64,000 nucleotides of DNA, from positions 1-64,000 of the forward strand of contig NZ_KQ958179.1 in the NCBI RefSeq assembly GCF_001546855.1, written 5' to 3'. Both the position numbers and the translations under genes were made by a program. Positions within the stretch are counted from its first letter, which is position 1. Every line of letters begins with the position of its first letter. This document shows positions 48,659 to 63,466 of this stretch, piece by piece. The notes under the pieces were generated by a model that worked only from the letters and a program-made list of their open reading frames with translations, was not told the DNA's origin and made no database searches. This DNA is from Megasphaera sp. MJR8396C (lineage in GTDB: Bacteria > Bacillota > Negativicutes > Veillonellales > Megasphaeraceae).

Positions 48659-48676
48659 CTATTGCTATTGCAATAG
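48659..48676. repeat. CTATTG-N6-CAATAG element
   Basis: CTATTGCTATTGCAATAG has the same CTATTG-N6-CAATAG layout as the promoter elements at 48972-48989 and (variant) 62346-62363. The surrounding 48561-48971 holds no gene I can support. Confidence 0.5.
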
Positions 48677-48969: not shown

Positions 48970-49003
48970 AACTATTGCATTTACAATAGTTACATGTTAC
49001 AAT
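48970..49003 (+). promoter_or_regulatory. Promoter with palindromic operator, module A
   Basis: The inverted repeat AACTATTG-N6-CAATAGTT (48970-48991) contains the -35 TTGCAT (48975-48980). After a 17-base spacer comes -10 TACAAT (48998-49003). The same geometry recurs at 62332-62363 before the paralogous module. Confidence 0.65.
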
Positions 49004-49068
49004 AGCTGTGTAAGAATAAAGAAAGACTATTCATGTTACTGGGAAAGCCGAAGGGAGGGGCCTTAGGA

Positions 49069-49356
49069 ATGACTCAGGATGCATCTGGAAATAATGAACA
49101 GCACGCAAACATTCGCCCGAGCTGAAGAAAATGCTTCGGCTGTATCTCCGGCTGAATGCCCAGATGCTCCGGAAATTGTTAGCCATCGGGATTGCGGTCG
49201 TCGAGAGAAGAAAAACTTTACCCGCTTTATTACAACAGTGAGGCGCAGTATTGCTTTTCTTTGCCGAAAACGCCGACGATAATCGGATCCAATGCAGTAT
49301 CTCATATCTACATTAACCTGATTTTGCTGAAGACCTCAGTGTACGAGAGTATGTAA
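49069..49356 (+). pseudogene. Frameshifted copy of the 90-residue protein gene
   Basis: A broken paralogue of the gene at 62000-62272. Translating in pieces gives NEQHANIR, then after a shift near 49111-49118 ELKKMLRLYLRLNAQMLRK and LLAIGIAVVERRK, then after a +1 shift near 49205-49229 LYYNSEAQYCFSLPKTP and SNAVSHIYINLIL. The intact copy reads RAMLKKIFKQYRRMNASIR, ALAEIGITVVEGRK, HYKLYYNNDDRYCFPLPKTP and ANAVSRIYNSLIL. AAGGGAGGGG precedes ATG 49069. It lies 42 bp ahead of the nuclease/Gly-Ala-rich gene, just as the intact copy precedes its partner by 31 bp. Confidence 0.75.
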
Positions 49357-49398
49357 GGGATTTGATTTTAAGTTATTGGGAATTAGAAAAGGAGCGCT

Positions 49399-50253
49399 AT
49401 GATGAGCAATTTCGAAAAAGATGCGAAGAACATGACGGGAACCGTTGCCAAAGAAGGGTACGAAGCGAGTGTCGGCGCTAGGGCCCTTGCTCGTGCTGGG
49501 AAATGCCCTAACCTGAAAGGACATGTTCACGAGCAGATCTTCTGCGACAAGTTCAACATGAACCCCCGCAATATCTTGGAGGGAAATCACGCCCAGCTCA
49601 CGAAATCGACGACGGCAAAAATGAAGGATGTCGTTGTCTTGAACAAGAAGGGCCAGGTTGTGAAGCATTTTCAGCTGAAGGACACGACCAGCAGCTCCGG
49701 CGTTGCTAAGACGTCGAAACAGATTATCGAGAAACATTACGGCAAGACCAAGGTCATGGGCACCGAAGAAACGGCTAAGAAAGTCGCCGACAAGATTGCC
49801 AATAAGACGAATCAGAAGATTCACAGTACCAATATTTCGACGAAAACGACTACTCGCATCGCCGATAAGGCTTTGGGAAAGATGCCGACGGCGGCGGCGC
49901 TGCGCTCGGCTGCTAAGAGTGGCGGCGTCAGCGGGGCCGTCTTCGGCGCCGGTATCGAGGCCGTTTCTTCGGTTATCGATGTCGTTGACGGGAAAAAGGA
50001 CGTCGACGATGCCGTGATCGACATCGCCGGCGCCGGCATTAAGGGCGGCGTCACTGGTGCTGCGTCGGCCGCTGCCGGCAGTGCGGCTGCCGGTGCCGCC
50101 GGTGCGGCTGTGGCAGCCGTTACCGGGACGACCGTCGGCGGGGCCTTGGCGGCGACGACGGTTGGCGCCGCTACGGTTGTGGCAGCCCCGGTTGTCATTG
50201 GCTTTGCGGCCGCCTGTGCCGTCGGCAGTTTCATTTCCGACCTCTTCGATTAG
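49399..50253 (+). CDS. PD-(D/E)xK-like nuclease domain fused to a Gly/Ala-rich membrane segment
   Basis: A 284-residue protein of unknown function. Residues 1-34 carry VAKEGYEASVG, shared with its paralogue at 61573-61968. Residues 35-135 look like a PD-(D/E)xK nuclease core: Glu45 in GHVHEQIF, Asp77 in KMKDVVVLN, then Gln92-x-Lys94 in FQLKD. Residues 176-284 form a Gly/Ala-rich, glycine-zipper-like region (GAGIEAVSSVIDVVDGKKD, then long small-residue hydrophobic stretches) ending SFISDLFD, and are closely alignable to the paralogue. This suggests a toxin- or defence-type effector that inserts in membranes, but this is inferred. AAAGGAG precedes tandem ATGs at 49399 and 49402. Confidence 0.72.
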   Translation: MMSNFEKDAKNMTGTVAKEGYEASVGARALARAGKCPNLKGHVHEQIFCDKFNMNPRNILEGNHAQLTKSTTAKMKDVVVLNKKGQVVKHFQLKDTTSSSGVAKTSKQIIEKHYGKTKVMGTEETAKKVADKIANKTNQKIHSTNISTKTTTRIADKALGKMPTAAALRSAAKSGGVSGAVFGAGIEAVSSVIDVVDGKKDVDDAVIDIAGAGIKGGVTGAASAAAGSAAAGAAGAAVAAVTGTTVGGALAATTVGAATVVAAPVVIGFAAACAVGSFISDLFD

Positions 50254-53818: not shown

Positions 53819-54000
53819 GGTATAATTTTTCTCACCTCTATGATAAGGACTTTTCACTGCGGAATCATCTGCCGATTTTATGTGCTGACTCTATTTCCGA
53901 TAAAAAATAAGAGATTTACTTCCATTTATGCTACTCGGAATGGATATATGTAACGATTAGTTGTATACTATATGTATAAATAAAACAAGAGGTGGTAAAT

Positions 54001-54360
54001 TTGAATACTTTAGTAAAAACGCATTACATTAGAAATAACCTCATAGCCCTTTTCTTCGGAGTGATAGTACCAGCATTTCTCTTGACAAGTTCTCGCAGCA
54101 ACGCTTGTGGTGCCTACTTATTAACGGCACTAATCGCACTAATACCAACAAATATTGCCTATAGTAAGGGTAGGAATTTCGCTAAATGGTTTATTTATAG
54201 TACCTTTTTATGGATTATTGCCATAATTCATAGTATAAAAATTACTCCTAATGATAAATCAAGAATCAGAGCCGGATATCATAAATGCCCTTACTGCGGC
54301 GAACTCAGCCGCCCGGAAGCCACCGTTTGTCATTGCTGCGGCCGAGATTTATTTATATAA
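54001..54360 (+). CDS. Membrane protein with C-terminal zinc ribbon (paralogue 1)
   Basis: A 119-residue protein I cannot name. Three hydrophobic segments (about 14-30, 38-52 and 62-80) are followed by a cytoplasmic-type zinc ribbon, CPYCGELSRPEATVCHCCGRDL (four zinc cysteines as two CxxC pairs). The start is TTG 54001, five bases after AAGAGGTGG; a GTG at 53992 lies within that site. The gene is AT-rich. It is followed 40 bp later by a close paralogue, so the two are likely a tandem duplication and one operon. Confidence 0.78.
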   Translation: MNTLVKTHYIRNNLIALFFGVIVPAFLLTSSRSNACGAYLLTALIALIPTNIAYSKGRNFAKWFIYSTFLWIIAIIHSIKITPNDKSRIRAGYHKCPYCGELSRPEATVCHCCGRDLFI

Positions 54361-54400: not shown

Positions 54401-54763
54401 ATGGAAAAACCACACAATGTACGTTACTCATTAATAGCTTTTTTAATCTTTTCTATTCTCGTTCCCATCCTATTATCCGATGTGAACTTATTGGGGAATA
54501 AAGGTGAGCTCTATATGGAGTATTGGATTTTCTCGGTATTAGCGCTAATCCCTGCCAACATCGCCTCCAACAAAGGCCGCAGCTTTGCCATTTGGTATAT
54601 CTATGGACTTTGCCTTTTTCTAATCGCCTTCATTCATAGTTTATGCATCAAGGACAATGATATTGCTAAAACGTTCAAGGGCTGGCATAAATGCCGACAC
54701 TGCGGCGAATTTAGCCAACCGGAAGCGACGGTTTGTCACTGCTGCGGCCGGGATTTAGCTTAG
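54401..54763 (+). CDS. Membrane protein with C-terminal zinc ribbon (paralogue 2)
   Basis: A 120-residue paralogue of the preceding gene. The shared plan is clear: N-terminal hydrophobic helix, ALIPANIASNKGRSFAIWYIYGL (ALIPTNIAYSKGRNFAKWFIYST in its neighbour), a third helix, then HKCRHCGEFSQPEATVCHC ending CGRDLA. ACGAGAGG lies about ten bases before the ATG. The ribbon may bind another protein or nucleic acid at the membrane surface; function unknown. Confidence 0.78.
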   Translation: MEKPHNVRYSLIAFLIFSILVPILLSDVNLLGNKGELYMEYWIFSVLALIPANIASNKGRSFAIWYIYGLCLFLIAFIHSLCIKDNDIAKTFKGWHKCRHCGEFSQPEATVCHCCGRDLA

Positions 54764-61427: not shown

Positions 61428-61438
61428 GTTTTAGCTCA

Positions 61439-61496
61439 TAAAAAGAGGCTGTAACGAAAGCGTTTTGAACTCGCATTTCGTTACAGCCTCTTTTTC
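61439..61496. terminator. Bidirectional terminator
   Basis: Long stem AAAAAGAGGCTGTAACGAAA with complement TTTCGTTACAGCCTCTTTTT, T run on both strands. It ends the isomerase gene (+) and module B (-). Confidence 0.85.
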
Positions 61497-61572
61497 AATT
61501 AATCAGCAATCCATCTTGAAGTCGGCTTTATTGGGTCTACACCGACACAATCCTAAATCGTACGGCAGACGG

Positions 61573-61968
61573 CTAGTCAAAAATCTCATCGAAGATATCA
61601 CTGACGGCCCCAGCCACAGCACAGGCCGCCGTAAAGCCAATGATAACCGGAGCCGCCACAACAGCAGTACCAACCGTCGTTGCAGCCAGGGCCCCAGCAG
61701 CGGCATTGCCAGCAACGGCCGAAACGGCCCCGATCACACCGCCCTTAACACCGGCGCCGGCAATATCTACCGCCGCATCGACCACATCCTTTTTACCGTC
61801 CATGACATCAGTCACCGAGGACACGGCCTCCATGCCAGCCCCGAAAAGAGCTCCGGTGGCCCCACTGTTCTTCACAGCCATCAAAGGCCAAGAACCGACC
61901 GAAGCCGGATACCCCTTTTTAGCTACAGGAATCCCGACTTCTTTATAAAATTTCTGGTTGTTCATCAT
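61573..61968 (-). CDS. Gly/Ala-rich membrane protein, short paralogue without nuclease domain
   Basis: A 131-residue protein of unknown function. Residues 14-26 (VAKKGYPASVGSW) and 36-131 (GATGALFGAGMEAVSSVTD, DVVDAAVDIAGAGVKGG, then small-residue hydrophobic stretches to SDIFDEIFD) align with the two ends of the protein at 49399-50253. The middle ~140 residues of that protein, including the nuclease-like motif, are absent. The zipper-like C-terminus should insert in a membrane. GAGGAGG lies before tandem ATGs at 61968 and 61965. It is the second gene of a two-gene operon, 31 bp after the 90-residue gene. Confidence 0.72.
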   Translation of the reverse strand: MMNNQKFYKEVGIPVAKKGYPASVGSWPLMAVKNSGATGALFGAGMEAVSSVTDVMDGKKDVVDAAVDIAGAGVKGGVIGAVSAVAGNAAAGALAATTVGTAVVAAPVIIGFTAACAVAGAVSDIFDEIFD

Positions 61969-61999
61969 GATAATCCTCCTCTTGAAAAACTCTTACTCC

Positions 62000-62272
62000 T
62001 TATACAAATTGGGGCAAAATCAAAGAATTATAAATCCGAGATACAGCGTTGGCCCCGGTCCTCGATCCGCTTGGCGTTTTCGGCAAAGGGAAGCAATACC
62101 GATCATCGTTGTTATAGTAAAGCTTGTAATGCTTTCTGCCTTCAACAACGGTAATCCCGATTTCAGCCAACGCCCGCCGAATCGATGCATTCATCCTTCG
62201 ATACTGCTTAAAAATTTTCTTTAACATTGCTCGAATATGCTGTGCTTCATCCAACACTGCTTTTTTCGCCAT
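62000..62272 (-). CDS. Small basic protein of unknown function (90 residues)
   Basis: An unrecognised small basic protein. The N-terminal half is helical (EAQHIRAMLKKIFKQYRRM, ASIRRALAEIGITVVEG). The C-terminal half RKHYKLYYNNDDRYCFPLPKTPSGSRTG (in two parts) and ANAVSRIYN resembles the pattern RKHYKL..RY...PKTPS..R.G.N seen in small proteins with a HicA-like fold, but this is only a resemblance. Start ATG 62272 follows AAGGGAG by nine bases; a longer frame to 62320 lacks a site. A frameshifted copy lies at 49069-49356. It is encoded directly upstream of the Gly/Ala-rich protein and could be its regulator or partner. Confidence 0.65.
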   Translation of the reverse strand: MAKKAVLDEAQHIRAMLKKIFKQYRRMNASIRRALAEIGITVVEGRKHYKLYYNNDDRYCFPLPKTPSGSRTGANAVSRIYNSLILPQFV

Positions 62273-62331
62273 CCACAGATCTCCCTTCCATTTTAAGAGA
62301 ACAAAAAGATCATGTTTCATATTACATTATC

Positions 62332-62375
62332 ATTATATCAGTTATCTGTTGCTAATGCAATAGCAAATGCAATAT
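62332..62375 (-). promoter_or_regulatory. Promoter with palindromic operator, module B
   Basis: Minus-strand -35 TTGCAT (62355-62360), 17-base spacer, -10 TATAAT (62332-62337). The -35 lies inside CTATTGCATTAGCAACAG (62346-62363, minus orientation), a variant of the module A palindrome. Next to it (62364-62375) is ATATTGCATTTG, which makes a 12-base direct repeat. Confidence 0.65.
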
Positions 62376-62404
62376 ATTTTTATTTTCTTCATATTACCCT
62401 GCCA

Positions 62405-62433
62405 TTGATTATAAAATCGTTATATGTTAAAAT
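62405..62433 (+). promoter_or_regulatory. Promoter of the HTH coiled-coil gene
   Basis: Plus-strand -35 TTGATT (62405-62410), 17-base spacer, -10 TAAAAT (62428-62433), 28 bases before ATG 62462. The shared operator elements of module B lie 30-60 bases upstream. Confidence 0.5.
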
Positions 62434-62461
62434 AATGACAAAAGACAGAGGAGGTGATTTT

Positions 62462-63388
62462 ATGCCATTACCCATATTGACAGCTTTGCGGGCAGCAGGA
62501 ATCATTGCAGCGGGAGCTACCGGATCCCTTCCACTGGCCTTAATTGCAGGGGCAGTAACGGAAGCTATGGTCTCGACGGAAACTGATAACTCAGGAGAAT
62601 CTGAGACGAAAACAGCCGAAGCCCAAAAAAACTCGACGGAGACTACGGATACACTTACGGAACCGACTGAGGCTGCCACAGCCGCAGGAATGGCAGCCGC
62701 AACGGAAGAAGCAGCTAAGACTATAGGAAACATCATGGAAAGAGCTTCTTTAAAAACTGGTGACAATTTCTCCGATGAAAAGAAAGAATATACCGTAGCC
62801 GAAGCTGCTGATTTGCTGGGAATCAGCCAATATACGGTAAAAAAGAAAATCCGTGAAAAAAAACTTCTCGGACGCATCGATGGAAAGAAATATATGGTTT
62901 TCGCGGAGTCAATCCAAGAGTATTCTAAAAACGCCAAAAAGTCTGGACATATTCTGGGAGATCCAGTAAGCGGCGAAGAGTCCGCTACCGAGGCGTGGAA
63001 AAATCCCGCTCTACTGGAAAAATCTATTGAAAGTGCAAGATTACAGCAAGAGATCTTCTCTCTAGAAATGGAAAAACTTGAGTTATCAAAAAAAATGGCC
63101 AAGAAATCAAACGACGAAGATCAAGTAGACAAATTGAGCCAACAAATTATCGATAAAAAAATTCAAATATTAGAGATTTCTAAAGAGATAAAGATATTCG
63201 AAGCCCAAATTCTGTATTTATCAGAGCATCCTGACCTCTCCCAAGACAACGATGAGGATATCAATATAAAGTCTTTTATGGAAGACGATTCGGATTTTTT
63301 CACGAAAGATGATTCGGACCTTTTCCCAGAAACTGATAGAGCTGTTGAGAAAGAGCCTAACAGAAAAAAAATACCCAAGAGAAAATAA
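62462..63388 (+). CDS. Predicted membrane-anchored helix-turn-helix coiled-coil protein
   Basis: A 308-residue protein. Residues 8-36 (ALRAAGIIAAGATGSLPLAL and on) form a small-residue hydrophobic hairpin. A long Thr/Glu/Ala-rich linker follows (about 38-105). Residues 108-156 are an excisionase/MerR-like helix-turn-helix (EYTVAEAADLLGISQYTVKK, GRIDGKKYMVF). A coiled coil (about 183-255) and an acidic tail with two DDSD repeats end in a basic cluster. The start at 62462 has GAGGAGGTGAT, which decides against the longer frame from 62312. The gene is AT-rich, and it is divergent from module B, whose operators it may bind. No family assigned. Confidence 0.75.
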   Translation: MPLPILTALRAAGIIAAGATGSLPLALIAGAVTEAMVSTETDNSGESETKTAEAQKNSTETTDTLTEPTEAATAAGMAAATEEAAKTIGNIMERASLKTGDNFSDEKKEYTVAEAADLLGISQYTVKKKIREKKLLGRIDGKKYMVFAESIQEYSKNAKKSGHILGDPVSGEESATEAWKNPALLEKSIESARLQQEIFSLEMEKLELSKKMAKKSNDEDQVDKLSQQIIDKKIQILEISKEIKIFEAQILYLSEHPDLSQDNDEDINIKSFMEDDSDFFTKDDSDLFPETDRAVEKEPNRKKIPKRK

Positions 63389-63404
63389 AAGTCTTTACGG
63401 GTAC

Positions 63405-63442
63405 AAAAAAAGGGGCTGAAAACATTGTTTTCAGTCCCTTTT
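63405..63442 (+). terminator. Terminator of the HTH coiled-coil gene
   Basis: Stem AAAGGGGCTGAAAAC/GTTTTCAGTCCCTTT (one mismatch or G-U) with a short loop and T4 tail. Confidence 0.75.
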
Positions 63443-63466
63443 ACATTTCTATAAGAAAACCTTGGA

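Follow-up and report, generated by a model that had tools for sequence, protein, structure and literature searches.

A candidate membrane-associated DNA-binding protein of MerR type encoded beside a duplicated gene module in Megasphaera sp. MJR8396C

A gene in Megasphaera sp. MJR8396C encodes a 308-aa protein that is probably a local regulator of its own island. Our preferred and still tentative reading is that it is a membrane-associated, MerR-type DNA-binding protein built on a plan like that of RocS and TubY, which may control the adjacent module B, and perhaps module A, through the inverted repeat CTATTG-N6-CAAYAG. This reading is favoured because the HTH_17 domain scores above its cutoff, a wing is modelled, the sites are rare and lie by the modules, the gene shares an island with module B, and TubY and RocS provide a precedent. 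Regulation of the modules is inferred from two things, gene order and the sites; counting against it, module A has two of the sites yet no such gene beside it. The plan of the protein is uncommon and testable. It varies a known design, and the relatives form a small family of which no description was found.

The gene and the parts of its protein

The window analysed is a 64,000-nt stretch (contig NZ_KQ958179.1, positions 1-64,000), in which the gene lies at 62462-63388. The frame is intact over 308 codons, from an ATG at 62462 to a stop at 63388, and the coordinates and length given by an earlier, sequence-only reading are correct. The start was placed at 62462 and not at the in-frame upstream ATG at 62312 because a strong ribosome-binding site, AGGAGGTGAT, sits at 62449-62458. 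The G + C content of the gene is 41.7% versus 51.1% for the window, which is in keeping with an accessory gene, and we take the ORF to be a real gene. Its features are:

62405-62433, plus strand: promoter-like TTGATT-17-TAAAAT of the 308-aa gene (consensus match only)
62449-62458, plus strand: ribosome-binding site, read from the sequence
62462-63388, plus strand: coding sequence, 308 aa (hydrophobic N-terminus, winged helix-turn-helix (HTH), coiled-coil hairpin, acidic/basic tail)
62471-62572, plus strand: small-residue hydrophobic stretch, a putative membrane segment, residues 4-37 (low pLDDT)
62774-62944, plus strand: MerR-type winged HTH (HTH_17/excisionase-like), residues 105-161 (Pfam; modelled helices and wing; BldC, Xis and RacA structural rows)
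63005-63226, plus strand: coiled-coil hairpin, residues 182-255 (both models; homology to C-termini of relatives)
63245-63385, plus strand: acidic DDSD tail ending in NRKKIPKRK, residues 262-308 (missing in relatives by alignment)
63408-63442, plus strand: terminator-like stem-loop 3' of the gene (sequence scan)

Pfam HTH_17 (PF12728) was matched at residues 110-154 with an E-value of 5.6e-8 and 33.4 bits, above the gathering cutoff of 27; the excisionase-like DNA-binding domain proposed earlier is upheld by this match and by the modelled fold. NCBIfam TIGR01764 ("excise", excisionase family DNA-binding domain) gave 27.6 bits, just below its cutoff of 28.8, which is passed by five of six relatives, L106 falling below. 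AlphaFold2 was run with an 8-row alignment (eight family members), and a separate single-sequence model was made. In the alignment-based model residues 109-161 fold as a winged HTH, with wing strands at 137-147 and a block pLDDT of about 79-92. Among the VIA-align rows for residues 104-161 were BldC (6ama; Z 8.0, rmsd 2.1 over 56 aligned residues) and the Xis of phage Pukovnik (4j2n; Z 7.8, rmsd 2.4 over 53), and these matches of a predicted structure speak to fold class and not to function. A Foldseek search with the predicted structure returned nothing at E 0.001 or less, RacA (5i44) appearing weakly at E 0.12. The domain is common to the protein and the HTH_17/excisionase family (PF12728, TIGR01764), but that name covers the domain only; compared with HTH_17 alone, the protein adds a membrane-like stretch, a linker and a coiled coil.

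Both models contain helices at residues 182-215 and 219-255, with block pLDDT 85-98 when the 8-row alignment was used. A long coiled coil had been described here; a coiled coil is modelled, but as a two-helix hairpin and not as a single long rod. A hidden Markov model built from seven relatives scored the 308-aa protein at 24.9 bits, a score reached by none of 1000 heptad-preserving shuffles (maximum 20.4 bits) and none of 500 plain shuffles (maximum 17.6). Because 24.9 bits exceeds every shuffle of either kind, the coiled coils of the protein and its relatives look homologous, beyond mere likeness. In structural comparison the coiled coil gave Z values as high as 10, which long helices commonly reach, and a sequence search of the PDB gave one coiled-coil match, at E 0.71. 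The tail was said to carry DDSD repeats; EDDSDFF and KDDSDLF are present, but two copies are too few for an array, and the basic C-terminus, NRKKIPKRK, had been omitted. The alignment-based model has no helix beyond residue 281.

The best 19-residue Kyte-Doolittle mean of the protein is 1.87, at residues 14-32. When the full sequence was shuffled, 46 of 2000 versions reached this value, as did, within the first 60 residues, 12 of 84 ATG ORFs of at least 200 aa on the contig (spurious frames included), so the hydrophobicity of the N-terminal stretch is unusual, not rare. The single-sequence model shows two short N-terminal helices (4-17 and 23-36) with a pLDDT near 40; in the alignment-based model there are none (pLDDT about 37), and its first 77 residues stay below 50. 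The membrane hairpin of the sequence-only reading is one possibility, a single pass being the other. An arginine lies inside the hydrophobic segment at residue 10.

Modules A and B and the inverted-repeat sites

As the sequence-only reading had noted, the gene is divergent from module B, both genes of which lie on the minus strand. The features of the two modules, the island and the sites are:

48659-48676, plus strand: site CTATTG-CTATTG-CAATAG, upstream of module A
48972-48989, plus strand: site CTATTG-CATTTA-CAATAG, upstream of module A
49027-49326, plus strand: module A counterpart of the 106-aa gene, broken by 2 TGA and 1 TAG
49399-50253, plus strand: module A protein, 284 aa, with a PDC-M72B-like N-terminal part and a Gly/Ala-rich C-terminus
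61428-63457, no strand assigned: island of about 2 kb with module B and the 308-aa gene (about 300 unrelated bases in sister species G007)
61573-61968, minus strand: module B, 131-aa Gly/Ala-rich membrane-like protein, without the nuclease-like part of module A
62000-62320, minus strand: module B, 106-aa protein (phrog_2053, unknown function)
62332-62360, minus strand: TTGCAT-17-TATAAT, promoter-like sequence for module B (seen by eye; below promoter-scan threshold)
62346-62363, minus strand: site CTATTG-CATTAG-CAACAG, between module B and the 308-aa gene, overlapping TTGCAT of the promoter-like sequence for module B

Module B is a shortened duplicate of module A. It is 74% identical to A where it aligns with the C-terminal part, and the DNA similarity runs on through the 106-aa gene that is broken in A. 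The diverged duplicates A (49027-50253) and B (61573-62320) are damaged differently, A having a broken 106-aa gene and B having lost the nuclease-like part. Larger proteins, about 500 aa long, contain a part that the 106-aa module B protein matches; they lie at four loci (L005-L008) in G009, G007, G010 and another contig of its own genome.

Sister species G007, with about 90% identity over the flanking genes, is without modules A and B and the 308-aa gene. Because the gene and module B lie in one island that is absent in G007, they came or went together. It could be supposed that the protein is the directionality factor (excisionase) of this 2-kb island, given its excisionase-like HTH, the structural match to Pukovnik Xis and the presence or absence of the island between sister species. 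No integrase-like gene, however, was found among the ORFs of 61428-63457 by reading them, and the protein has a long linker, a membrane-like segment and a coiled coil, which makes such a role scarcely credible. Small Xis proteins are not known to have a long linker, membrane-like segment or coiled coil.

With at most one mismatch allowed, CTATTG-N6-CAAYAG gave six strand matches, that is three places, in the 64-kb window, against a mean of 0.37 in shuffled sequence (0 of 100 shuffles reached 6), for a pattern that was built after the sites themselves had been seen. All three sites are upstream of modules A or B. Two of them may share descent through the A/B duplication; the site at 48659 lies outside the aligned duplicate part. 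Because the modules are duplicates, the sites may also have been inherited and be read by another protein. A longer site pattern was applied genome-wide and gave one exact match, at module B; its mismatch counts (36, 43) equalled those of the reversed control (32, 50) and were uninformative.

Proteins of similar plan and a proposed mode of action

The combination of a MerR-type winged HTH, a coiled coil and a membrane-binding part is known from few bacterial regulators. RocS of Streptococcus pneumoniae tethers chromosomal DNA to the membrane (PMC11500499), TubY of type III plasmid partition is a membrane-binding MerR-like regulator (PMC7762940), and each must oligomerise for membrane binding. 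These two show that proteins of such a plan can place DNA at the membrane (PMC11500499, PMC7762940).

The likeness to RocS lies in the MerR-type winged HTH, the oligomerising coiled coil, the membrane-binding part, putative in the 308-aa protein, and the DNA that would be brought to the membrane. In RocS the order is HTH, coiled coil with DUF536 and a C-terminal MinD-like amphipathic helix (PMC11500499), whereas in the 308-aa protein the hydrophobic stretch precedes the HTH. The winged HTH precedes the coiled coil as in RocS, but begins near residue 105; DUF536 is missing from the Pfam rows at E up to 1; and in place of the amphipathic helix the C-terminus is DDSD-rich, then basic. TubY (PMC7762940) has in common with the 308-aa protein a MerR-like HTH of a regulator, a coiled coil, a basic C-terminal tail and the binding of membrane and DNA, which is predicted for the 308-aa protein; it differs in its parallel four-helix bundle and in an amphipathic, Lys-rich helix at the C-terminus. 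RacA of Bacillus subtilis likewise has a winged HTH followed by a coiled coil and ties DNA to the cell pole; it anchors through DivIVA, whereas the 308-aa protein has its own hydrophobic segment (PMC11500499). By analogy of plan the protein would work like RocS and TubY, but it is not a member of either, as it has no amphipathic helix at the C-terminus and carries its membrane-like part ahead of the HTH. No tubR- or tubZ-like genes were noticed beside the gene, its neighbours being module B and isomerase-like and Nudix-like genes (named by reading their sequences).

In the mechanism we propose, the small-residue hydrophobic N-terminus would insert into the membrane and anchor the protein on its inner side, and an acidic, Ser/Thr/Glu-rich linker of about 65 residues would let the winged HTH reach DNA. 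The coiled-coil hairpin would make the protein oligomeric; a winged HTH of MerR type usually requires an oligomer for tight DNA binding. The protein would most likely bind CTATTG-N6-CAAYAG in the 141-bp intergenic region, over the module B promoter, and so control module B and, through the two further sites, perhaps module A, 12 kb away. Through the membrane segment, binding would depend on the membrane, on its state or on what occupies it, the Gly/Ala-rich module proteins being one example. The three sites offer a direct, cheap test of the binding target.

Relatives of the protein and of the modules

Single-sequence searches found the gene in its own genome only, at the level of the genus (1 of 15 genomes, the other 14 without it), the family (1 of 17) and the order (1 of 61), and no relative was found in a GTDB contig pattern scan or among plasmids, phages and viral contigs. 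The isolation of the gene within its order, together with the damage to both module copies, would fit a decaying passenger without present function; we consider this very unlikely, since all 308 codons are intact, a promoter-like sequence, a ribosome-binding site and a terminator accompany them, and HTH and coiled coil are conserved against the family.

At class level, the single-sequence search matched eight genomes of one genus, through the HTH. A profile made from four proteins of that genus and the 308-aa protein was run on 380 class genomes (Negativicutes) and matched in 17, its own included, hence in 16 further genomes. In 12 of these genomes (again with its own) the match extends from the HTH through the coiled coil, and in the other five (G212, G267, G302, G332, G335) it is confined to the HTH; for three of the five (L101, L102, L103), an alignment served to place the coiled coil. 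By sequence comparison these proteins form a Negativicutes family with a homologous HTH and coiled-coil hairpin in one chain and an optional small-residue stretch. A profile search of the phylum (matches in 49 of 398 genomes) was set aside, as most matches span the HTH part only; three of 29 phylum loci (L110-L138) passed the motif filter and all resemble other HTH_17 proteins, and this search is no evidence either way on members beyond the class. Searched with relatives, plasmids gave one 285-kb Selenomonas plasmid and later also an Acetoanaerobium record; two relatives gave nothing against viral contigs, and two gave nothing against phages. No paper on the protein or its family was found in the open-licence literature.

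A hydrophobic stretch (Kyte-Doolittle mean at least 1.47) is present in six of the nine representatives measured: before the HTH in the 308-aa protein, L101 and L102 (at the extreme N-terminus in the latter two) and after the HTH but ahead of the coiled coil in L103, L077 and L106. L104, L105 and L107 have none (0.53, 0.54, 1.11). On reading, all eight proteins of the first-matched genus have a Gly-rich stretch. An N-terminal membrane-like segment is a recurring, not constant, feature of the family. The segment reported earlier therefore stands as a small-residue hydrophobic stretch but not as a fixed one, and the architecture called unusual recurs as HTH and coiled coil, often with such a stretch and on the RocS/TubY plan, though the stretch is missing in three of nine and moved in three of nine. 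Such a family would test whether attachment, and not its position, matters.

The same counts bear on two further readings. One is a soluble, antitoxin-type regulator whose hydrophobic N-terminus pairs with the Gly/Ala-rich module proteins instead of entering the membrane, as the moderate hydrophobicity, Arg10, the lack of a high-confidence helix, the three representatives without the segment and the divergent gene order would allow; relatives that bear the segment without the module, however, mean that a module protein cannot be the general partner, and we hold this improbable. The other is a family in which winged HTH and coiled-coil hairpin are fixed and the membrane segment shifts between two positions in the chain, one member having been recruited as a membrane-coupled regulator of both module copies. 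This is rather doubtful as a whole; if true, the output of the nuclease/Gly-Ala-rich module would depend on membrane state through CTATTG-N6-CAAYAG at both copies.

The gene's link to the module is private to its own genome. Homologues with no tie to the module, which the sequence-only reading had named as evidence against it, do occur, and the link fails in both directions: relatives are found without the module, with no module relative at 16 loci of the 16 other family genomes, and tblastn of the 308-aa protein against 12 long module relatives from the class search found the gene beside none (some stretches short or cut by contig ends). The small-residue character said to be shared with the module proteins holds for composition, but BLASTP of the module B protein against the Gly-rich neighbour of L102 gave no match. 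None of these results supports the sensing of membrane damage suggested by that reading, or a function in common with the module. No CTATTG-N6-CAAYAG-like site was seen by eye upstream of L102, L103 or L077.

Relatives in unrelated settings, such as the L105 member, which adjoins rqcH-, miaB- and mutS/mutL-like genes (named from reading the sequences), and the one on the 285-kb Selenomonas plasmid, fit a general, non-module role. The protein might then be a tether or positioning protein of RocS/TubY type, holding chromosomal or element DNA at the membrane with no part in module transcription, and its winged HTH, coiled coil and putative membrane-binding part are by analogy the same three elements. 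On the other side, absence from the other 14 genomes of the genus searched argues against a core segregation factor, there are only three sites in 64 kb and no centromere-like array was noticed, there is no C-terminal amphipathic helix, and DUF536 does not appear in the Pfam rows. A tether is unlikely on balance, and we retain the membrane-associated regulator as the preferred reading.

Gly-rich genes lie near some relatives (a divergent 70-aa gene at L102, one downstream at L103, one two genes off at L107). Of 308 background genes, however, 51 also satisfy the rough criterion used, which with four neighbours each gives about that frequency; a link of relatives to Gly-rich membrane genes is about chance and is not claimed; the gene caller behind these neighbourhoods and the background count was crude, and some antisense frames were picked. 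At L103 (7552-9255; Selenomonas ruminantium pSRC1, WP_014431216.1) a protein of about 560 aa adjoins the family member; it combines a stretch resembling D..(E/Q)xK with a region resembling a Gly zipper, and no Pfam family matched it above cutoff. Homology to module A was rejected for it, as the Gly-rich stretch alone aligns (E 1e-4, one comparison).

Elsewhere, a module A relative with 62% identity (L032, 3980-8807) stands directly before two helicases matching PADLOC HamB (Hachiman) models, a context that suggests that the module belongs to a defence setting. The module A protein also has a distant relative, at 32%, on a faecal phage contig that is unannotated (MT837620.1; L033, 2397-2867). 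Within the window, two adjacent similar genes (53992-54360 and 54401-54763) encode small membrane-like proteins with a Cys-rich, zinc-ribbon-like tail and look like tandem duplicates.
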